From: a virus
DNA: 24,105 bases
IMG/VR virus record: IMGVR_UViG_3300025671_000525
Location: 1 to 24,105 of that record
Reading direction: 5' to 3' (one strand)
Each line of letters opens with the position of its first letter. Position 1 is the stretch's first letter. Below the pieces are notes generated by a model, which made no database searches, was not told the DNA's origin, and saw only the letters and a list, made by a program, of their open reading frames with translations. The position numbers and the translations under genes were made by a program. Shown here one piece after another: positions 4,352 to 24,084 of this stretch.

Positions 4352-5014
4352 ATGAGTAAAGTTTCTTTATCCCATATATCCACGATCCCCGGAATGACAC
4401 CGGAGGAATCCATTCTTTATTATGCCCGTGTCTCCAATCCATCAGGGCAGACCAAGAACAATCCGAGACTTTTCAAGTATCTCTATGAACATGAACATTG
4501 GTCTCCATTCGAGATGATCTCCATGTGTCTCCATATTGAGACAACCAGAGACATATCAAGACAGATACTCAGGCATAGGTCCTTTTCATTTCAGGAATAT
4601 TCTCAGCGGTATGCCCGTGTTGATGACCTTGGGTGGACCAAGAGAGACATGAGATTTCAAGATATAAACAACAGGCAATCTTCTGTACTCCCTGATCCTG
4701 ATAATCTTGAACATTTCAACATGAATCAAAAGTGGGAGTCTCTGCAATACGATGTAATCGAGACAACGACCAAAGCATATACATGGGCTCTTGATCAGGG
4801 TATTGCCAAGGAACAAGCCCGGGCAGTATTACCGGAGGGTCTTATCAAGACAAGCCTGTATATGCATGGGAGCATACGTAGTTGGATTCATTATGTCAAT
4901 CTTAGAACAGGACCAGAGACACAGAGAGAACACCGGGAGGTAGCTTTGGAGTGTCAGAGAATTCTCTATGAACAGTGTCCTAGTTTACAGGGTATCCATG
5001 AGGATCTTGGCTAG
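4352..5014 (+). CDS. thyX: FAD-dependent thymidylate synthase ThyX
   Basis: A 220-residue flavin-dependent thymidylate synthase, converting dUMP to dTMP with methylene-tetrahydrofolate and NADPH. The ThyX signature is intact: Arg74-His-Arg, then Ser79, Ser84 and Arg86 in RHRSFSFQEYSQR. The N-terminal LYYARVSNPSGQ and HEHWSPFEM segments and the C-terminal PEGLIKTSLYMHGSIRSW are also typical. The length is usual for the family. AGGAAG precedes the ATG. With the deaminase upstream and RNR and MazG downstream it forms a dTTP-supply set for phage replication. Its stop codon lies in the first copy of a 51-bp repeat. Confidence 0.95.
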   Translation: MSKVSLSHISTIPGMTPEESILYYARVSNPSGQTKNNPRLFKYLYEHEHWSPFEMISMCLHIETTRDISRQILRHRSFSFQEYSQRYARVDDLGWTKRDMRFQDINNRQSSVLPDPDNLEHFNMNQKWESLQYDVIETTTKAYTWALDQGIAKEQARAVLPEGLIKTSLYMHGSIRSWIHYVNLRTGPETQREHREVALECQRILYEQCPSLQGIHEDLG

Positions 5015-5111
5015 GATAACAAGGATAATAAAGACAGAGCTAAGACTTAGCTAGGACAGAGCTAGGATAACAAGGATAATAAAGACAGAGCTAAGACAGA
5101 GCTAAGACAGA
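5010..5111 (+). repeat. 51-bp tandem duplication at the thyX stop
   Basis: Positions 5010-5060 and 5061-5111 are two copies of a 51-bp unit, identical in the first 37 bases and differing at three positions in the rest. The first copy includes the thyX stop codon. A 15-bp perfect dyad, AGCTAAGACTTAGCT, occurs at 5038-5052 and again at 5155-5169. The second copy runs directly into the 11-bp array. Confidence 0.85.
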
Positions 5112-5170
5112 GCTAAGACAGAGCTAAGACAGAGCTAAGACAGAGCTAAGACAGAGCTAAGACTTAGCTA
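5083..5170 (+). repeat. Seven to eight tandem copies of AGACAGAGCTA
   Basis: The 11-mer AGACAGAGCTA repeats without interruption seven times (5083-5159) and ends in a diverged eighth copy, AGACTTAGCTA (5160-5170). The period is again 11 bp, though the sequence is unrelated to the array at 827-981. Frames across it contain frequent TAA and TAG. It is followed by two CCTAGG hexamers (5175-5180 and 5186-5191) that could fold into a 6-bp hairpin with an AATAA loop. Confidence 0.85.
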
Positions 5171-5316: not shown

Positions 5317-5799
5317 ATGAACATCTTCTTTCTTGACAGAGATCCGAATACCTGTGCCAGATACCATGTTGACAAGCATGCATCCAAGATGGTACTGGAG
5401 ACTGCACAGCTTCTCTCCACAGCACATCACCTTTGTGATTCCCCGTTTGTATTCTCGGTCTACCGGATGACACACCGGAATCATCCAAGTGCCATCTGGG
5501 CACGGGAGTCTAAGGCACATTACGAGTGGTTATATGGTCTGTTCATGGAACTCAACATGGAGTTCAAGCATAGGTATGGGAAGGATCACCTGTCATATAC
5601 CAAGCTTGACCAGTATCTCTCCCACGTACCACCGGGTATTCAAGAGGAACCATGGCTCAGGGATCCACCCCAGTGCATGCCATCTGAATACCATGATGAA
5701 GACACGGTTAAGGCTTATCGTTCCTATTACATCCATGGTAAGAAGCATCTGCATGCCTATACCAACAGGGAATATCCGGATTGGATCATGGACGCTTAG
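5317..5799 (+). CDS. Conserved phage protein with CARYH-DKH motif
   Basis: A 160-residue protein of a type often seen in phage genomes but without an assigned function. Its N-terminus carries the characteristic pattern: MNIFFLDRDPNTCARYH, then VDKHASKMVLETAQLLSTAHH, rich in Cys, His, Asp and Lys residues that may form a metal or catalytic site. The middle has THRNHPSAIWARES and HYEWLYGLF, and the C-terminus has AYRSYYIHGK. No signal peptide or membrane span is visible. The ribosome binding site is weak (GAGAGG about 12 bases upstream). Its stop codon TAG lies inside the acceptor stem of the tRNA gene, so the mRNA and the tRNA compete or are processed from one transcript. Confidence 0.75.
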   Translation: MNIFFLDRDPNTCARYHVDKHASKMVLETAQLLSTAHHLCDSPFVFSVYRMTHRNHPSAIWARESKAHYEWLYGLFMELNMEFKHRYGKDHLSYTKLDQYLSHVPPGIQEEPWLRDPPQCMPSEYHDEDTVKAYRSYYIHGKKHLHAYTNREYPDWIMDA

Positions 5800-5866
5800 C
5801 TCAGCCGGATAGAGCAACAGCCTTCTAAGCTGTGGGTCAGTGGTTCGAGTCCACTAGCGTCCACCA
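5790..5866 (+). tRNA. tRNA-Arg (anticodon UCU), CCA encoded
   Basis: A full cloverleaf is readable. The acceptor GGACGCT (5790-5796) pairs with AGCGTCC (5856-5862). The D-arm is GCTC/GAGC and the anticodon stem ACAGC/GCTGT, around loop CTTCTAA with anticodon TCT at 5824-5826. The variable loop has five bases, and the T-arm is AGTGG/CCACT with TTCGAGT. Discriminator A5863 is followed by an encoded CCA (5864-5866). The tRNA reads AGA/AGG, codons that are frequent in the surrounding phage genes, so supplementing a rare host tRNA is the likely role. Its first ten bases overlap the end of the preceding gene. Confidence 0.95.
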
Positions 5867-6177: not shown

Positions 6178-7881
6178 ATGTCTAAAATTTCTGAAGTCAC
6201 ACACTCGAAGTTCATCAGACACTCACCATGTGAATCATGTGGAAGCAGTGATGCCAATGCAATCTATGAAGATCAGTTATCAAACGGGGATGTGTCCATC
6301 AGGACCTTCTGTTTCTCCTGCGAAAAGATAACATTCCCTGACCAAGAGAGGCACTCCAGTATGAACAACTACGTAGCACCTGTGTCTAAAGGGCGTACCG
6401 ATACAAGCGCCTATCAGTTCTCTGATATTTCAGATCGTAAGATTAATCGACAAACAGCAGAAATGTTTGGAGTCCGGGTATCCAAGGATACCAATGGTAG
6501 TATTATTTCCCATGTCTATCCCTTCTATGAAAAGACAGGGCAGAAGATTGTTGCATACAAGAAGCGTGTCTGTTCTGACAAGAGCTTCTCTGTCATCAGC
6601 CCGGAGAAAGAGGTCCATCATGGTTTTGATCAAGCCACCCTCTTTGGTCAGCAGCTATTCAATGGCACCGGGAAATACATTACCATCACCGAAGGTGAAC
6701 TGGATGCCATGGCTACGTACCAGATGCTTGGTTCAAAGTGGCCTGTCGTTTCTCTACGTTCCGGGGCTCAGGGTGCTGAAAGAGACATCAGAAAAAATCT
6801 GGAGTTCTTTAACTCTTATGACAAGGTAGTTCTCTGCCTTGACAATGATGAACCCGGAAAGAAGGCAGCCCAGAAGCTATCCGAAATCTTCGAGATCGGT
6901 AAGTGTCTGATCATGCCGATGACTCGTAAGGACCCCTGTGAATATCTACAGGCCGGGGATAGCGCCTCGTTCACCCGAGAGTGGTGGAGGGCAAAGCCTC
7001 TGTCCCCTGATGGTATTGTCTCAGGCGAGGATGTCTGGGACCTTGTCTCGACTGAACTTGAGAACAACTCGATCTCCTACCCATGGGAAGACCTGAACAA
7101 GGTAACCTACGGCATTCGATGTGGTGAGCTTGTAACTATTACGGCAGGCTCTGGTATCGGCAAGAGCGCCATCATGAGGGAGATCATCTATCACATTCTG
7201 AAAAACACAGAGGAAAATGTAGGGGCTCTCTTTATGGAGGAGAGCATCCGACGTACAGCACAGGGCCTGATGTCCATTGATGCGAACAAGCAGTTCCATC
7301 TGCCAACAACCGTGTACACTCAGGAAGAACTTAAGACAGCCTTCAAGAACACGGTCGGATGTGGCCGAGTCTATCTCTATGATCACTTTGGTTCATCTGA
7401 GATTGACAACATCATCTCCCGAATCAGGTACATGGCTAAAGGTCTGGAGTGCAAGTACGTATTCCTTGATCACATCTCGATCATTGTCTCCTCTCAGGAG
7501 AACGGGGATGAACGCAAGGCCCTTGATGAGATCATGACCAAGTTACGCATGCTGGTACAAGAGACCCACATCAGTCTCTTCGTTGTCTCCCACCTGAAGC
7601 GTCCACAGAATGGAGGAGGCCATGAGATCGGTGGTGTCACAACCCTGTCTCAGCTTAGAGGCTCCGCAGGTATTGCCCAGCTATCTGACATCGTTCTAGG
7701 TCTGGAACGAAACTCACAGGATGATGACCCCGTTGTCCGGAACACCACCATCGTGCGTGTCCTGAAGAACCGGTTTTCCGGGGAGACTGGGCCTACATCC
7801 CGCCTTGTCTGGAGCAAGGAAACCGGGCGGCTCAATGAAACATTTGAAGATCTTGAAGCAGACATCGAGGAGGCTTTCTAA
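6178..7881 (+). CDS. T7-type bifunctional DNA primase-helicase
   Basis: A 567-residue protein with the complete T7 gp4 layout. The N-terminal zinc-binding domain has Cys18-x2-Cys21 and Cys45-x2-Cys48. The TOPRIM primase domain has E172 in TEGELDA and D222-x-D224 in CLDNDEPGKKAA. The C-terminal RecA-like helicase has Walker A GSGIGKS (324-330) and Walker B FLDH with D431. The length equals that of T7 gp4. The tail is acidic and ends in Phe (DIEEAF), like the T7 helicase tail that contacts the polymerase. It primes and unwinds at the replication fork. Its stop overlaps the next start by one base (TAATG), with GAGGAGG upstream serving that gene. Confidence 0.95.
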   Translation: MSKISEVTHSKFIRHSPCESCGSSDANAIYEDQLSNGDVSIRTFCFSCEKITFPDQERHSSMNNYVAPVSKGRTDTSAYQFSDISDRKINRQTAEMFGVRVSKDTNGSIISHVYPFYEKTGQKIVAYKKRVCSDKSFSVISPEKEVHHGFDQATLFGQQLFNGTGKYITITEGELDAMATYQMLGSKWPVVSLRSGAQGAERDIRKNLEFFNSYDKVVLCLDNDEPGKKAAQKLSEIFEIGKCLIMPMTRKDPCEYLQAGDSASFTREWWRAKPLSPDGIVSGEDVWDLVSTELENNSISYPWEDLNKVTYGIRCGELVTITAGSGIGKSAIMREIIYHILKNTEENVGALFMEESIRRTAQGLMSIDANKQFHLPTTVYTQEELKTAFKNTVGCGRVYLYDHFGSSEIDNIISRIRYMAKGLECKYVFLDHISIIVSSQENGDERKALDEIMTKLRMLVQETHISLFVVSHLKRPQNGGGHEIGGVTTLSQLRGSAGIAQLSDIVLGLERNSQDDDPVVRNTTIVRVLKNRFSGETGPTSRLVWSKETGRLNETFEDLEADIEEAF

Positions 7882-8867
7882 TGACCAAGGCTATCATCAC
7901 CGGAATCAGTGGACAGGATGGATATTATCTGGCTGATCTACTATTAAACAAGGGATATGAAGTTATCGGTATTTCCCGTAGACCTACGTACAAGGTAAAC
8001 CAGTATAATAACAATGATCTTTATTTCAAATACTATCCATGTTATCAGGAAATCAATGGGGATATCTGTGATTCATCTTTTATGATGCAGGTTATCTCCA
8101 GTCATAAGCCTGATGAATTCTATAATCTGGCAGCCCAGACACATGTAGGATATTCCTTCAGCAATCCGGATATCACCTTTGATACAAATGCCATGGCTGT
8201 GCTGAATATTCTGGAAGCCATCCGTCTTACATCAAAGCACACCAGATTTTATCAGGCATCAACATCAGAGATGTATGGGACAATTCACTCAGAGAGTGCT
8301 GATGAAACGACACCACTGAACCCTTATTCACCTTATGGCGTAGCAAAAACAGCAGCACATCACATGGTATCAGTCTATCGTGAATCCTATGATGTATGGG
8401 CATGTTCCGGGATTCTCTTCAATCATGAGAGTGAACGTCGAGGTAAGGACTTTGTAACAAGAAAGGTAACTTCATGGGTGGCTGATTATAAAAAGTTTAT
8501 TCATAACGCCGATCACAAACTCCATCTTGGAAATATTTCATCAGTCAGAGACTGGGGCTATGCACCAGATTATGTCAGGGGTATGTGGAAAATGCTCCAG
8601 CATTCATATCCGGATGACTATGTTCTTGCCACTGGAGAAACACGGTCAATCAGTGATTTGCTCGATACGGCTTTCGGTTATATCGGTATTGACAACTGGT
8701 CCAATCTTGTAGTACATAACACCCCTGCCGATATCAGACCTAATGATGTGACACGCCTATGCGGAAATCCGGCAAAGGCCATGACCGTACTTGGTTGGAA
8801 GCCGGAAGTTTCTTTCAATGAAATGATCGGAAGGATGATTGACCATGACATCAAGGTATCTTCTTGA
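7881..8867 (+). CDS. gmd: GDP-mannose 4,6-dehydratase
   Basis: A 328-residue extended short-chain dehydrogenase. It carries the nucleotide-binding GxxGQDG motif (GISGQDG, 8-14) and the STSEMYG block (127-133). The Tyr152-x3-Lys156 pair (YGVAK) and a FNHESERRGKDFVTRK segment are typical of Gmd. The reaction converts GDP-mannose to GDP-4-keto-6-deoxymannose, the precursor of GDP-linked rhamnose, fucose and perosamine. No downstream epimerase, reductase or aminotransferase is in the window, so the host must supply it or the product is used otherwise. It is slightly shorter than bacterial Gmd. It starts by one-base overlap with the helicase gene and overlaps the polymerase gene by 23 bases, so it is translated with the replication proteins. 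Confidence 0.9.
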   Translation: MTKAIITGISGQDGYYLADLLLNKGYEVIGISRRPTYKVNQYNNNDLYFKYYPCYQEINGDICDSSFMMQVISSHKPDEFYNLAAQTHVGYSFSNPDITFDTNAMAVLNILEAIRLTSKHTRFYQASTSEMYGTIHSESADETTPLNPYSPYGVAKTAAHHMVSVYRESYDVWACSGILFNHESERRGKDFVTRKVTSWVADYKKFIHNADHKLHLGNISSVRDWGYAPDYVRGMWKMLQHSYPDDYVLATGETRSISDLLDTAFGYIGIDNWSNLVVHNTPADIRPNDVTRLCGNPAKAMTVLGWKPEVSFNEMIGRMIDHDIKVSS

Positions 8868-16930: not shown

Positions 16931-17698
16931 ATGAACTACTGGCCAAAGATTTATATTGGTTATGACAACAGGGAAGACATTGCATATCAGGTTTGTCGGT
17001 CCTCTCTTCTAAATTCTTCAGGTACTCTCCTTGAAGATGACGTTGTACCAGTGAAACATCAGACCCTACGAAATGAAGGTATTTTCAATAGAGCATGGCG
17101 TATTGACGGAAGTGGACAATACTGGGATGAGCTTGATGGTAAGCCCTTCTCAACCGAGTTTTCTTTTACCCGGTTTCTTGTCCCTGAGTTAGCAAGACGA
17201 GATGGGATTAACAAAGGTCCTGTGATTTTTGTTGACTGCGATTTCCTCTTCTTGAAGGATGTTCATACAATGGTAATGGACTACTTCGATCCTTCAAAGG
17301 CAGTTCAGGTTGTCAAGTTTAATTTTAATCCAACATCAACCATCAAAATGGATAACAAGATTCAATCAAATTATCCAATGAAGCTATGGTCTTCACTCAT
17401 TATGTTTAACATGGAACATCCAGATAATCTTAAGCTTACTCCAGAAATGGTTAACTCGGCTACCGGAACATTTCTACATGGGTTTGGCTGGGTTTCTTCT
17501 CCAGATTTAATTGGGGAAATCCCACCACAGTGGAATTATGTAGCCGGGGTTACACAGGGTGACGAGCCTGCTGCCATCCATTACACAGAAGGAGGTCCTT
17601 GGTTTTTAGAATACAAGGAATGTCCGTTTGCAGATGAATGGTACAGGGCTCTTATTGCCTGTATTGACGAAGATCACTTTACAATCATGGACTCATAA
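16931..17698 (+). CDS. Glycosyltransferase (GT-A fold, GT8-like)
   Basis: A 255-residue cytoplasmic glycosyltransferase. The N-terminus KIYIGYDNREDIAYQVCRSSLL is typical of nucleotide-sugar-binding GT8/Stealth-type proteins. The metal-binding DxD is Asp102-Cys-Asp104 in VIFVDCDFLFLKD. The C-terminal AAIHYTEGGPWF is the usual acceptor-site His region. The donor cannot be read from motifs. A GDP-sugar made by the phage Gmd is attractive, but many GT8 enzymes use UDP-sugars. Its stop is immediately followed by the ATG of the next gene, implying a joint role with it. Confidence 0.8.
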   Translation: MNYWPKIYIGYDNREDIAYQVCRSSLLNSSGTLLEDDVVPVKHQTLRNEGIFNRAWRIDGSGQYWDELDGKPFSTEFSFTRFLVPELARRDGINKGPVIFVDCDFLFLKDVHTMVMDYFDPSKAVQVVKFNFNPTSTIKMDNKIQSNYPMKLWSSLIMFNMEHPDNLKLTPEMVNSATGTFLHGFGWVSSPDLIGEIPPQWNYVAGVTQGDEPAAIHYTEGGPWFLEYKECPFADEWYRALIACIDEDHFTIMDS

Positions 17699-19963
17699 AT
17701 GACAACCTCTTATAAAATCAAACTAACATCAGACATTACTGTTCTAACCTCTTTCAAGGTTGATGACTATCATACATATGCCTCCAGATTCTTAGAATCA
17801 TGGGTAAAGTTCTGGCCAAAGAATATCAGGCTTACGGCATACTATAATGGGGGAAAGCTTCCAAAAGATGTTATCAAGGCAAAGAACATCAATTATGTAT
17901 CACTGGATAAGAATCAACAGCTTGTTAGTTTCAAGGAACGAAACGCTCAGTTTAATGGGGGCACTCCTTATAACTATCGTATGGATGCTGTAAAGTTCTC
18001 ACATAAGGTTTTCGCCATCTGTGACCATGTAAATAAGATGTCAGTCAAAGATGAGATGGGATGGCTTGTCTGGATTGATGCGGATGTTCTGACGACCAAA
18101 AGGATTGAACCATCTTTTCTAAACAGTATTTTTCCAGACACTTCCGACATTGTCCATCTTGGACGTGCCGGAGTTATTGATTATTCCGAGACAGGATTTC
18201 TCGGTTTCAATCTGACATATAACAAGGCACACGACTTCCTCAGAGACTGGAGATCCCTATATACAACCAATGAAATCCTTGGACTAAGGGAATGGACTGA
18301 TGCGTTCTCATTTGAAAGACTCCTCAATATCCACAAGAATCATGGAATTACAGCGCACAATCTATCGCCACATGCGGCCTCTCTTGAGGCTTTTGATTAC
18401 TCTCCTCTCACAGAATATTTCATTCATTTCAAGGGTGGCAGAAAGAGCATTCTCAATTCTCCGTATGAACCCGGTCCTAACCGTTATCGGGACATTGAGA
18501 AGTTCATCCAACACTATAGCAGAACAAAGCTTCTTGAAGTCGGAACTTGGAATGGAAAGAGGGCACTCCGTCTCATTACGGCTGCGCTTCAGAATTCTGA
18601 TTCTGTCCATTATGTTGGACTGGACCTATTTGAAGACGGTAATGAAGAACTGGATAAGATCGAGGGTAATGTAAAGCAGAGAACATACCTGCATAATGTA
18701 AAGGCCCTGCTTAACACATTCTCCAAGGATGCTCTTCTTGAGGGTAAGAAGGTATCCTTTGAACTAGTCAAGGGTAATTCACGGGAGACTCTCCCGGAAA
18801 TTCTATCCAGATACACCCCTGACTTTGCCTACATTGACGGTGGTCATTCTGTTGAAACCATCAGGTCAGACTACGAGAACCTGAAGAATGTTCCGGTGAT
18901 TGTCTTTGATGATTACTACAAGAAGGATGGGGACGGGAGCCTCAGCTTTGACACGGAACTTTATGGGTGCAACCAGATCGTAGACAAGGAACTACCGGAG
19001 GATTATCATAAGGGTGTCATCCCATCCCGTGATGCTGTCCAAGGTGGCGGTATTACCTGTCTGGCATACGCCTGCAATTCAACTTTGCCAGCCCCGCCAG
19101 ACTTTGAGAACATCCAAGTTCCTATTAAGGTTCAGCCAAAGGATTGTGTCCCTGATGAATATATCCATAACAACATCAAGGCCAATCATCTTATCATCAA
19201 GAAATGGGTATCAAACAGATTCCGTTGGAATACAGAGACTGCCGTCTGTGTATCAGCCGGTCCGACAATCAAGAAGGACTTGGAGAAGATCCGGGATCTC
19301 TATCACGAGGGTCACAAGATTGTATGTGTCAAGCATTCTCATAATTTCCTTCTGGATAATGGGATCATTCCATGGGGCTGCGTCATCCTTGATCCACGGG
19401 AACTGGACGGCATCTCGACACATGGGGTGAAAAGACGGGATCTCCTTGAAGAGCCGTATCCATATACCTATTATTTTGTGGCAAGCATGACAGACCCCTC
19501 AGTTACCTATCACCTGAATAAGAAGGGTGCCAAGATTATCGGTTGGGATGCCTATTCAAATGCTGTCATGACTTTCAAGGATATCCATGACAGGATGATG
19601 ATCACCGGAGGAACCTGTGCTGCCATGCGGGCTATTGCCCTGATGCACACTTTTGGATTCCGGTCCTTTCATCTGTTTGGCTATGATGCCTGCATGGACC
19701 CAGAGATTCCAGTTGATCTGACAGAGAAGGATGCCTCCGGTCGCCAGAAGTATCTACAGGTTACGGTAGGTGGGCAAAACTTCATCACAACTGGAGAGCT
19801 TCTGGCCATGGGTCAGGACATGGAACAGTTCTTCCAGAAAGATGATGATATCGAATACCATGTCTATGGTGAAGGAGGCATGGGTTATGCCCTTTGGCAG
19901 ATTGAGAAAGCCAAGAAGAACTTTGATTCATATCACTCATTCCTTAAAATCAGTGGAGAATAA
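17699..19963 (+). CDS. Three-domain protein: glycosyltransferase + SAM methyltransferase + DUF115
   Basis: A 754-residue fusion. Residues about 1-255 form a GT-A-like domain with Asp127-Ala-Asp129 (WIDADVLTTK) and a late FIHFKGG. Residues about 265-450 form a class I SAM methyltransferase domain: LLEVGTWNG (278-286), YVGLDLF, then AYIDGGHS around D380-H383 and VFDDYYK. Residues about 490-754 resemble DUF115/MAF, with CVSAGPTIKKD (GP at 521-522) and FGYDACMD near 662. MAF proteins transfer nonulosonic sugars to flagellin in bacteria. Together this suggests building and methylating a glycan on one polypeptide. The target is unknown. It is directly joined to the GT8-like gene upstream. No membrane span is seen, so it acts in the cytoplasm. 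Confidence 0.8.
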   Translation: MTTSYKIKLTSDITVLTSFKVDDYHTYASRFLESWVKFWPKNIRLTAYYNGGKLPKDVIKAKNINYVSLDKNQQLVSFKERNAQFNGGTPYNYRMDAVKFSHKVFAICDHVNKMSVKDEMGWLVWIDADVLTTKRIEPSFLNSIFPDTSDIVHLGRAGVIDYSETGFLGFNLTYNKAHDFLRDWRSLYTTNEILGLREWTDAFSFERLLNIHKNHGITAHNLSPHAASLEAFDYSPLTEYFIHFKGGRKSILNSPYEPGPNRYRDIEKFIQHYSRTKLLEVGTWNGKRALRLITAALQNSDSVHYVGLDLFEDGNEELDKIEGNVKQRTYLHNVKALLNTFSKDALLEGKKVSFELVKGNSRETLPEILSRYTPDFAYIDGGHSVETIRSDYENLKNVPVIVFDDYYKKDGDGSLSFDTELYGCNQIVDKELPEDYHKGVIPSRDAVQGGGITCLAYACNSTLPAPPDFENIQVPIKVQPKDCVPDEYIHNNIKANHLIIKKWVSNRFRWNTETAVCVSAGPTIKKDLEKIRDLYHEGHKIVCVKHSHNFLLDNGIIPWGCVILDPRELDGISTHGVKRRDLLEEPYPYTYYFVASMTDPSVTYHLNKKGAKIIGWDAYSNAVMTFKDIHDRMMITGGTCAAMRAIALMHTFGFRSFHLFGYDACMDPEIPVDLTEKDASGRQKYLQVTVGGQNFITTGELLAMGQDMEQFFQKDDDIEYHVYGEGGMGYALWQIEKAKKNFDSYHSFLKISGE

Positions 19964-20658: not shown

Positions 20659-20767
20659 CATCTGCTCCATCATGGAGCCCATCCTGATCTCAAAGGATGA
20701 TATACTGACAGACGAGACTGCCAGACAGATTCTAATTCATAACGAATTTTATGACAGGGTTTGTTAG
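20582..20767 (+). CDS. Rz1-like outer-membrane lipoprotein (o-spanin), overlapping the Rz-like gene
   Basis: A 61-residue lipoprotein begun at the ATG at 20582 in the +1 frame inside the Rz-like gene, with AGGAAAA upstream. The signal peptide MKYAWMSMVCLMLMLGAC has a lipobox Leu15-Gly-Ala-Cys18, so the mature protein starts at Cys18. The mature part carries further cysteines (ICSIMEP and the C-terminal DRVC) that may form disulfides. It has 77 bases of overlap with the Rz-like gene and extends past it. Its stop overlaps the stop of the convergent leftward gene by 4 bases. A Gram-negative host is implied. Confidence 0.75.
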   Translation: MKYAWMSMVCLMLMLGACSTNGAGTDICSIMEPILISKDDILTDETARQILIHNEFYDRVC

Positions 20768-23700
20768 GTCTGAGGCTGATAACGCCAGCCGAATTGACCA
20801 AGAATGTTCTCCTGATACTCCCCTCGAATATTCTTTGGCAGATCTGTAAGAGGAACACGAACACCTTCTCTTCTCAGGAAATCATCAAGGGCATATCTGG
20901 CAATTGTCTTGGGATCAAAGGAGAATGGCTCTGATGGATTTTCTCGTCTGCTCTCGGCCACAGCCATCTGAATTGCTCTGAGGTCTTCCTGAAGTTCCCT
21001 GACGGCTTCTTGGTCACCCTCGGCCCGAGCCTCATACAGATCAACCATAGTGTTTCTGTATTCATTCCTGAATCTTTCACCACGTCTGTTATAGTTGCGC
21101 TCCATCATGTTCTGCTGATACTGGGAATTGCGGGCTTCAACGACGGCTGTCGGAGTGAAGCCTGATGCCTGCATGATCGTGTCAAAGAAATCAATGCCTC
21201 CGAATGCTTCAACAGGAAGCTCACGTCCGGCCAGAGTGACTCTCCGAGATCCCATGGAGGCAAGGGCTATGTTTCGGAATACAGGAGGAAGAAGCTCCAT
21301 GAGCGCAATGTCTTCATCCCCATTATTATATCGACGGAAAAAGTTACTCGCTTGTCCCAACATACCACCGGCAGGACCAAGGAAATCTGGGAGGGATGCT
21401 TCTTGATTTCCAAGTACATTATTGAAAAAACTACGTGGGCCTTCGATACCAGTTCTCTTACCAATTTCAACACCAGCAAGAGAGGGAAGACCACGGTAAG
21501 CCAGAGCGGCTGATATTTCCTGTGGCAGACCAAATGAATTAAACATGTCAGTCAGCATCTTTTCCGGATCTTCTTCATCACCGCCAAAAGCACTGATGAT
21601 CATGCTGATCAAATCTCCGATAATACCAGCAAGAGGCATACCAATAATGCCACCACCGGCGATGAAAGCCATGCTGGAAATGAGGGCCATCTTCTGATAA
21701 ATCTTGCGAGTTTCAGGATCCAGTTTTCGAGGATTTCCTTGGGCATCAATACCGGATGCACCAACGATGCCAGCATATAGAGCCCCAAAGAAATAACGCA
21801 TGACATTAAACTGATATGGGAGGAACTGGGTGACCACGCCACCGATTGGTCCCCGGTTATATTCGGGCCTCTCTGTCTTATCAAATTTGAACTGGGCTTT
21901 TTCAACAGAGAACTTGGTGAAGTTCTCGGCATTGAATTCACCAAACTTATTAGTCCCCTCGGCTTCATAGATGCGACGGGCAGCCTCCGGGTTTTTCTTA
22001 TAGGTCTCATAGGCGGCAATGGCCGTGGCAACTCTGTTGAATGTCTCAACCCATGCAAAGGCAAATCCTGCACCTCTCACGGCAATATCAAAGGCACGAC
22101 CAGCTTTTGTATTTTTGCGCAATCCCTGCTGTGTAAGCTCGCCTGTAAAATCTGATAGCATGATGGGGTTAAGACTTGGCTGAATGCTCTTCAGCATGTC
22201 AAAGATATCCTGCGGCATTCCATCAGGCTTTGTCGTAAAGTCAAAAGGCTTGTTGGCAAAATCTAGGAATTGAAGAACCCGTGACATTCCGACTTTTTCT
22301 TGGGATGCAAAAGGCATTTTCTTCGTCAACATTGTGGCCAGCTTGACTCCCTTGATAAGAGCCTGTGTACCTTCGGCGGGATTCTTTGCTATTGCCATAA
22401 TATAAGGCATTGTTGTATGTACAAGACCAACAAGGTTAACCATGGCAGATGAGAGGTTGTAGCCAAGCCACCACACAAAGGCTGCTCTCTTAAACTTATC
22501 TGCGACCCTATGTTCCTCCGTCAGATAGCCATCTTTCCCCCAGACTTTCTCAACTTGTTGAATGACAGGTTCAGGGATAGATCTGTCACTCTTTGCTTTC
22601 TTGATTTCTTTCTGAAGCTGAATGTTGTTAGGCATTCTGGAAATAAGGTTGGCCTGTGATGAAACATAGTTATTAAAGTTTTCACTCAGGTATGTTGATC
22701 GATTATCACGGGTCAGATACCCATATACTGATTTTGATTTTGGCAGAAGCCTTGTGCCTACTGACTTGGAGATCTTGCCAATGAATTTTGATCTCAGATC
22801 TCTCAGGGCATCCTTATCCATCTTGGAAGAAAGTTCAGTAGACCCAATGGCAGAATCAAAGATCATCTGGATCATGAATGAATCAGAGGCATCAATGTTC
22901 TTTCTGATGAAGTTATCATAGGTTACTTCAAAGACATCCCCGTCTTTCTCATAGTCCGGGTTTTCAAGGAAGAACTTCTTCTGAAATTCTTGAGCATTAC
23001 GACGGAGAGACTTGATAGTAATCCCGGTATCATTAATTACCTTGAAGCCAGTTTGTTCAACGCCACGGGCATCCTTGAATTTATATTTAAAACCATATCG
23101 ACCATTACGGATTGATGGGAAATACATCAGTCTCTTCTGCTTCTTAGCCTCATTGTAAATTTTTAATGTATCTTCAATGTCTTTGACACGCTTGGTTTGA
23201 TTATTTTGATTTAATTGATCCAGCTTGGACTTCAAAGATTCTGGATTAGTCTTAATTTCATCCAGAGTGATATTAAGATAATTGTCCTTTGTTAGTTCCT
23301 CATTAATGGCAGCAAGATTAATAAGGACATAGGCATCAAGTTTTTCATCAAAGAGATAATCAAAAATCTTTCGTGTGTCTTCCGCAATCTTGGCAATGGG
23401 GGTATTAGGATCAATGCGGTATGTTTGATCCTGTAGGGAGGGATCTTGATGGATAATGTCCTGCCCAAAGAAATCAGTAATATTTAAATCTTCCCCGGAA
23501 AGAATCTTTCTGATTGTCTCAGTATTGGTGACGCCCATGGCACGAAGATCTTGTTCGGTCAGGGTCTCTTCCGTGGATACCTGAAGGATTCTATTGACAG
23601 CATCCAGAAAACCATTAAGCGTTGTTTTCTCTGTCTGATTTAGTTTTTCAAGAAATGCAGTCCCGGCAATTTCCTCAACTTTGAGAATGACATCATCAAA

Positions 23701-24084
23701 CTTGGCCTGAATCTTTCGTGTAATCTGGGCAATAGGCTTAAGACCCTCATACTTTGCAAAGAAGTCACCCATTGTTCCAGTCAGTCCGTAGAGATTATAA
23801 AAAAGATCTCCCAGCCATGACCTTATGTTACTTGGTGTTTGACCCTGCATAAATTTATTTATTGCAGTGGTGCTCTTCAGAGCCCTTGTTGGAGCTTGTG
23901 CATTATTGGCATAAATCTTATCCAGATTCTTTGACTCAACGATCAGGGGTTTTCTGGCTTCAGAGGGTCTGGCCAACTCTCCGGAAGTGAATGCATCAAA
24001 GATTTCATCGATGCTCTGGTACTCGGAGTTATTTTTCTTGGCTACCCCGGCCAAGGACTTGAGACCTTTCAAGAGTTTGTCCAT
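20764..24084 (-). CDS. Large virion-associated protein, candidate internal/ejection protein
   Basis: A leftward protein of 1106 residues from the ATG at 24084. The frame stays open (KGFIRRI) to the window edge and the ribosome binding site is poor, so the true start may lie outside. The N-terminal half is charged and helical. Two hydrophobic regions stand out: AFVWWLGYNLSSAMVNLVGL around residue 530 and a glycine-rich stretch (MAFIAGGGIIGMPLAGIIG) around 800-835. A charged coiled coil (RGERFRNEYRNTMVDL) lies near 1000-1040. Such size and membrane-active segments suit an internal core protein ejected with DNA, like T7 gp16. It also recalls large polyvalent-protein-associated domains. This is inference; no enzyme motif was found. 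Confidence 0.6.
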   Translation of the reverse strand: MDKLLKGLKSLAGVAKKNNSEYQSIDEIFDAFTSGELARPSEARKPLIVESKNLDKIYANNAQAPTRALKSTTAINKFMQGQTPSNIRSWLGDLFYNLYGLTGTMGDFFAKYEGLKPIAQITRKIQAKFDDVILKVEEIAGTAFLEKLNQTEKTTLNGFLDAVNRILQVSTEETLTEQDLRAMGVTNTETIRKILSGEDLNITDFFGQDIIHQDPSLQDQTYRIDPNTPIAKIAEDTRKIFDYLFDEKLDAYVLINLAAINEELTKDNYLNITLDEIKTNPESLKSKLDQLNQNNQTKRVKDIEDTLKIYNEAKKQKRLMYFPSIRNGRYGFKYKFKDARGVEQTGFKVINDTGITIKSLRRNAQEFQKKFFLENPDYEKDGDVFEVTYDNFIRKNIDASDSFMIQMIFDSAIGSTELSSKMDKDALRDLRSKFIGKISKSVGTRLLPKSKSVYGYLTRDNRSTYLSENFNNYVSSQANLISRMPNNIQLQKEIKKAKSDRSIPEPVIQQVEKVWGKDGYLTEEHRVADKFKRAAFVWWLGYNLSSAMVNLVGLVHTTMPYIMAIAKNPAEGTQALIKGVKLATMLTKKMPFASQEKVGMSRVLQFLDFANKPFDFTTKPDGMPQDIFDMLKSIQPSLNPIMLSDFTGELTQQGLRKNTKAGRAFDIAVRGAGFAFAWVETFNRVATAIAAYETYKKNPEAARRIYEAEGTNKFGEFNAENFTKFSVEKAQFKFDKTERPEYNRGPIGGVVTQFLPYQFNVMRYFFGALYAGIVGASGIDAQGNPRKLDPETRKIYQKMALISSMAFIAGGGIIGMPLAGIIGDLISMIISAFGGDEEDPEKMLTDMFNSFGLPQEISAALAYRGLPSLAGVEIGKRTGIEGPRSFFNNVLGNQEASLPDFLGPAGGMLGQASNFFRRYNNGDEDIALMELLPPVFRNIALASMGSRRVTLAGRELPVEAFGGIDFFDTIMQASGFTPTAVVEARNSQYQQNMMERNYNRRGERFRNEYRNTMVDLYEARAEGDQEAVRELQEDLRAIQMAVAESRRENPSEPFSFDPKTIARYALDDFLRREGVRVPLTDLPKNIRGEYQENILGQFGWRYQPQT

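Follow-up and report, generated by a model that had tools for sequence, protein, structure and literature searches.

A GT8 glycosyltransferase gene joined to a GT-A, methyltransferase and DUF115 fusion in an uncultured phage: a candidate glycan-assembly module

Why would a phage carry a glycosyltransferase gene joined directly to a second gene that combines another glycosyltransferase domain, a methyltransferase and a DUF115/Maf-like domain in one polypeptide, and what would such a pair decorate? We addressed this question in the 24.1-kb virus record of an uncultured phage (the window, 24,105 nucleotides long, whose positions serve as coordinates throughout). Few phage isolates are known to glycosylate proteins, and a gene pair that recurs in several groups of phages, its parts separate in one and fused in others, offers a testable handle on particle decoration.

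The gene pair and its predicted activities

The pair, the gmd gene and the downstream neighbours are laid out in the window as follows:

7881..8867, + strand: gmd, GDP-mannose 4,6-dehydratase (GMD)-like gene, 8 kb upstream of the pair and not adjacent to it
16931..17698, + strand: GT8-fold glycosyltransferase gene (255 aa)
17234..17242, + strand: DXD motif of GT8 (D102-C-D104); D102 and D104 invariant in 20 relatives
17579..17602, + strand: HxTxGGPW of GT8 (H217-W224); H217, G221 and P223 invariant and W224 nearly so in 20 sequences
17699..19963, + strand: predicted trifunctional fusion gene, GT-A + O-methyltransferase + DUF115/MptE/Maf-like (754 aa)
17735..18448, + strand: GT-A domain with a GT6-like fold (residues ~13-250), from Foldseek
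18077..18085, + strand: DXD motif of GT-A (D127-A-D129); D127 and D129 invariant
18461..19084, + strand: class I SAM O-methyltransferase domain (residues ~255-462), from fold and profile
18836..18913, + strand: metal-site motifs IDGGH (D380) to FDDY (D404, D405), invariant in 23 sequences
19127..19903, + strand: DUF115/MptE-like domain with a Maf/HPPK fold (residues ~477-735), PF01973
20449..20658, + strand: Rz-like spanin (phrog_1026, E=2e-9), where the cassette borders lysis genes
20764-24084, convergent to the pair: large PLxRFG/DarB-like gene, downstream neighbour

In the window ORFs, the stop codon of the GT8 gene abuts the ATG of the fusion gene on the same strand, with 0 bp between them. 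An adenosylcobalamin-type ribonucleotide reductase gene and then two small genes are found upstream of the pair, while downstream lie three small genes, one of which encodes the spanin, followed by the convergent 1106-aa PLxRFG/DarB-like gene. The cassette closes the early/metabolic strand beside the lysis genes, outside the head operon. The early region also harbours a tRNA-Arg (TCT) gene (5790-5866), and imperfect tandem-repeat arrays with short units occur at 823-1190 and 5010-5163 (e.g. TGAACAAACCG and AAGACAGAGCT, 11 bp). The DNA polymerase of the window has its nearest relatives in the HTVC103P-group pelagiphages (43%). A host assignment of this type was dropped, since the GC content of the window is ~44% and isolates of this group gave no match to the fusion or to GT8; they were also absent among the gmd matches listed.

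The GT8 protein matches phrog_28018 (E=2e-73). The window copy gave no Pfam match, including to the GT8 family, and its homologue in the related locus L063 matches PF01501 at 1e-7. Its structural model (pLDDT 91) adopts a GT-A fold akin to that of solved GT8 enzymes, which places it within the GT8 fold: the PDB matches include WbbM, LgtC, GlyE, LARGE and glycogenin (Foldseek E 7e-8 to 1e-5), the best being the C-terminal GT8 domain of WbbM (E=7e-8). A C-terminal HxxGxxKPW motif is a hallmark of GT8 enzymes, and we take the HxTxGGPW of the window protein to be its counterpart, with the K of KPW replaced by G.

The N-terminal ~250 residues of the fusion have no Pfam match, and their fold is nearest to the structures of alpha-1,3-GalT, ABO and BoGT6a (E about 1e-6 to 2e-5, TMt up to 0.57). 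Both aspartates of their DXD motif are kept in all of 18 sequences, the most distant at 31% identity, and also in the standalone homologues of L063 and of phage Mosig. The central domain matches PF13578 (Methyltransf_24) over residues 279-406 with E=5e-11, above the Pfam cut-off; it is similar in fold to COMT, TrmR and SafC (Z about 16), and in profile to the deoxysugar O-methyltransferase MycF (E=0.002-0.004). With its Rossmann SAM fold and acidic metal site, it belongs to the metal-dependent O-methyltransferases, although Methyltransf_24/COMT folds serve non-sugar substrates too. Among 18 diverse sequences, only L124 has lost the metal motifs: the methyltransferase domain of this fusion (~30% identity; L124:6708-8666) has also shed the bulk of its Rossmann core. 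Just upstream of the L124 GT8 gene lie two standalone genes with weak similarity to Methyltransf_23 (E 0.001 and 0.009; L124:4320-5371).

At the C-terminal end, PF01973 (MptE-like, formerly DUF115) covers residues 492-666 (E=8e-17, 62 bits against a cut-off of 34.6) and is present in all 12 records of 12. By profile, the domain is closest to Maf (5mu5, E=2e-5) and then to the archaeal pterin kinase MjMptE (8sd5, E=3e-4). By fold, Maf is again the best match, but this match spans the methyltransferase domain too; MjMptE reaches a Z of 14.8. The nearest NCBIfam model is the flagellin-modifying PseD, with which residues 504-723 are common. The original prediction described this domain as MAF-like: the resemblance in fold and profile is clear, but membership of the family does not follow, as the PseD match scores 22.3 bits against a cut-off of 670 and the archaeal pterin kinase MptE uses the same fold. 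More generally, the “MptE-like” annotation of many phage proteins could stand for glycosyltransferases and not for pterin kinases; a title and abstract search for MptE-like/DUF115 phage enzymes retrieved nothing relevant from the literature.

The whole-protein model of the fusion has a pLDDT of 75.5 and a pTM of only 0.41, so it gives no guide to the mutual arrangement of its domains. No transmembrane segments are predicted in GT8, the fusion or GMD. Altogether, the domain chemistry of the pair is well supported. The two directly joined genes, proposed to encode a GT8-like protein and a GT-A/SAM-methyltransferase/DUF115 fusion, are borne out by ORFs, Pfam and fold matches, which agree; structure prediction recovered GT8, GT-A, O-methyltransferase and Maf/MptE-type folds, and when degenerate active sites were looked for, the catalytic motifs were found intact instead, apart from the lysine of the GT8 C-terminal motif.

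Relatives, gene neighbourhoods and gmd

More than 50 related loci were identified, down to 29-34% identity, in uncultured, mostly aquatic phages. Relatives with the same architecture form clade 1 (74-82%), clade 2 (36-43%), a third set (39-46%) and the L124/L130 pair of loci (about 30%), the last two groups having been found through GT8 searches. An apparent full-length relative, A0A6J7X5Q0 from an uncultured Caudovirales phage (714 aa, 31% identity, E=3e-58), is uncharacterised and annotated only as a methyltransferase domain protein. Cultured phages gave partial GT-A matches only and not the whole fusion, and a scan of bacterial genome contigs with two sequence patterns found no bacterial relatives, so that it points neither to a host nor to an ancestor.

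In 13 of the 17 loci inspected the two genes share 1-4 bp, the GT8 stop reaching into the fusion start, and in clade 1 they are 0-22 bp apart; from this spacing, they are probably translationally coupled. The dN/dS ratios, calculated on nine close pairs, range from 0.03 to 0.16 in each of the three fusion domains, indicating purifying selection. Both glycosyltransferase DXD motifs, the methyltransferase metal motifs and the GP/DPR/STHG/GxD motifs of DUF115 are largely kept to ~40% identity or beyond. The existence of full-length colinear relatives in many independent contigs, together with low dN/dS in every domain, argues that the fusion is neither a chance event nor an assembly artefact.

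The neighbourhood of the cassette varies among relatives. L063 encodes the four domains in separate genes (DUF115, GT-A, methyltransferase and GT8, in this order), placed directly behind the genes for a major head protein (phrog_9953, E=9e-93) and for a structural protein of the virion (phrog_29386). L149 has the same order behind head genes. L150 breaks off within its DUF115 gene, which stands behind the capsid gene as in the first part of the L063 order. In L124, the terminase and portal genes flank the GT8-fusion pair, and the order in clade 2 is GT8, fusion, terminase small subunit and gmd. Such positions among virion genes in relatives, for DUF115 alone in L150, point to a virion protein as the best candidate acceptor; against it speaks the window itself, where the cassette borders lysis genes. 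In the third set, a PLxRFG-type gene is directly upstream of GT8 in 10/10 loci (L068, L069, L071, L072, L073, L079, L081, L086, L108 and L110). The PLxRFG/DarB-like genes belong to the phrog_11358 family where scanned; their product may be the acceptor, or the loci may just share an insertion site.

Among cultured phages, CcrColossus encodes a GT8 homologue within a group of glycosyltransferase genes that is flanked by a tail gene and the lysis genes. Pelagibacter phage Mosig (L143 6665-12499) carries a glycan-like cluster composed of two methyltransferase genes, GT-A, GT8, a sulfotransferase-like gene and another glycosyltransferase gene. A 2OG-Fe(II) oxygenase-like gene that could hydroxylate a virion protein is found amid the structural genes of relative G002 (L153:13603-14739, - strand). 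In part of clade 2 (L042-L049), a ThyX-like gene (26-31% to the window ThyX) lies just upstream of the ribonucleotide reductase gene.

In the window, gmd is flanked by helicase and DNA polymerase I genes. Its product matches GMD (1rpn, E=2e-85) more closely than the GDP-6-deoxy-lyxo-hexulose reductase (2pk3, E=1e-33), and the catalytic T128, E130, Y152 and K156 are invariant, which together place it with the GMDs. It scores 347.5 bits against the cut-off of 415 of the TIGR01472 equivalog, yet this is its best family by far, and the protein is best called GMD-like.

The gene is present in 9/9 clade 1 records covering its site (some of them near-identical) and in 21/21 clade 2 contigs reaching it, as well as in L063 and in the L073 record, while at E <1e-30 just 83 of 50,697 phage records carry it. 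It was not found in nine other records of the third set, all fragments of <30 kb, nor in the L124 record or the 46.7-kb L130 record. A co-occurrence of 100% was rejected when a control on GT8-bearing contigs gave further fusion clades without gmd. The proposed association of gmd with the fusion holds in two clades, and the available DNA of the third set mostly lacks the gene: gmd is a frequent, not an obligate, partner. Since it is missing from most records of the other fusion-bearing sets, the sugar may vary. The gene order around gmd differs between clades 1 and 2, and their gmd sequences do not group together in a small, provisional tree (long branch, few outgroups, L073 gmd left out), which suggests that they were recruited separately.

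GMD alone yields GDP-4-keto-6-deoxymannose. No reductase or other gene of the epimerase/dehydratase family was found in 11 records, so the final sugar would depend on a bifunctional GMD, for which PBCV-1, whose GMD also yields GDP-rhamnose, offers a precedent (PMC9614988), on a host reductase, or on direct use of the keto-sugar. For the envisaged sequence of precursor, transfer and methylation with a phage Gmd, the domains and the gmd co-occurrence are in place; the steps themselves are putative, and no reductase gene was found.

A proposed virion glycan and its alternatives

We propose, with about even confidence, that the pair is a phage-encoded glycan-assembly module producing a short, O-methylated glycan destined for a virion protein. 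Sugars would be added from nucleotide donors both by GT8 and by the fusion's GT-A domain; in clade 1 at least one of these sugars is probably of the 6-deoxymannose type, with a precursor made by the phage GMD. The central domain would O-methylate a sugar and thereby cap the chain, and the C-terminal Maf-fold domain would most likely carry out a third transfer, perhaps the one that links the glycan to Ser/Thr of a protein. The target is most likely a virion protein, for shielding the particle or changing its adsorption, with the module lying among late genes in many relatives. Beyond the gene pairing, domain folds, motifs, selection and virion-gene location observed in the relatives, we infer the donor, the order of the steps, the role of the Maf-like domain and the acceptor.

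The cassette could instead modify a host surface glycan (LPS, capsule) and so exclude other phages or stop progeny from adsorbing to debris. This explanation deserves serious attention, although we consider it unlikely: GT8 relatives include the LPS enzymes LgtC and WbbM, and cyanophages carry gmd, followed directly by GDP-fucose synthase in the two that were looked at, but here the reductase gene was not found and the cassette has no transmembrane segments, which speaks against a complete pathway of the LPS type. Moreover, a scan of its surroundings that took in part of the small ORFs revealed no gene of the lipid-carrier or flippase type, and several relatives have the cassette in a virion operon. 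Since many phage glycosyltransferases act on hydroxymethylated DNA, the cassette might also glycosylate DNA bases for restriction escape, as the T4 glucosyltransferases do, and the G002 relative does possess a DNA methyltransferase in addition to its 2OG-Fe(II) oxygenase-like gene. We find this highly improbable: no ThyA-family hydroxymethylase was found in 11 records, large ones included, which argues against DNA glycosylation, the thymidylate synthase of the window is a ThyX, and we know of no DNA glycosylation system with a Maf-fold domain or a COMT-type methyltransferase.

Two further explanations turn on the C-terminal domain. Pfam names PF01973 after MptE, and the good fold match to MjMptE would fit a pterin pyrophosphokinase, the fusion then serving folate/cofactor metabolism for ThyX. 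We give this the least credence, as Maf precedes MptE in the profile and fold comparisons, PseD is the nearest NCBIfam model, and constant coupling to GT8 and GT-A fits glycan work. Protein O-glycosylation could also be aimed at a host appendage (flagellin, pilin), blocking flagellotropic or pilus-dependent rivals, in line with the glycosylation of flagellin by Maf/PseD relatives (PMC11339370). It is improbable in our view, given that the PseD match is weak, that gmd makes a different sugar, and that the window shows no recognisable nonulosonic-acid genes, the usual source of Maf donors.

Returning to a virion glycan, a bolder version can be put forward only tentatively: that a glycan synthase made of a single polypeptide arose in tailed phages separately from algal viruses. 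In it, the Maf-fold domain would attach, GT-A extend and the methyltransferase cap an O-linked glycan on the virion, and gmd would have been recruited more than once.

Comparison with known glycosylation systems

The original prediction knew of no described phage system of this composition; a viral system of close composition does exist. In PBCV-1, the 638-aa A064R (GT-GT-methyltransferase) builds and 2-O-methylates the end of the major capsid protein glycan, with a deoxysugar as the methylated unit, and the virus encodes its own GMD, A118R (PMC9614988). Both systems thus combine two sugar-transfer domains and a SAM methyltransferase in one viral polypeptide with a virus-encoded GMD. Unlike A064R, the phage fusion has a Maf-fold domain, a methyltransferase in the middle and a constant separate GT8 partner. 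PBCV-1 infects algae and its domain order is GT-GT-MT, the likeness resting on composition.

Among phages, mycobacteriophages (Che8 gp110, Corndog gp38, Myrna) encode glycosyltransferases that glycosylate their capsid and tail tube proteins; in the portion of that work available to us, these are described as single glycosyltransferases, with no mention of a methyltransferase fusion or a gmd linkage (PMC12363180). Maf/PseD flagellin glycosyltransferases have the fold of the C-terminal domain (5mu5), but the fusion falls far under the family cut-off, is joined to methyltransferase and GT-A domains, and comes without a recognised nonulosonic-acid pathway. With deoxysugar O-methyltransferases of the TylF/MycF type, the central domain has in common the profile match and the D...DD metal-site pattern, while being distant from them and embedded among glycosyltransferase domains. 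By analogy, the phage system would work like those of PBCV-1 and the mycobacteriophages and differ from them in composition, as a compact enzyme with three predicted activities that parallels chlorovirus capsid glycosylation.
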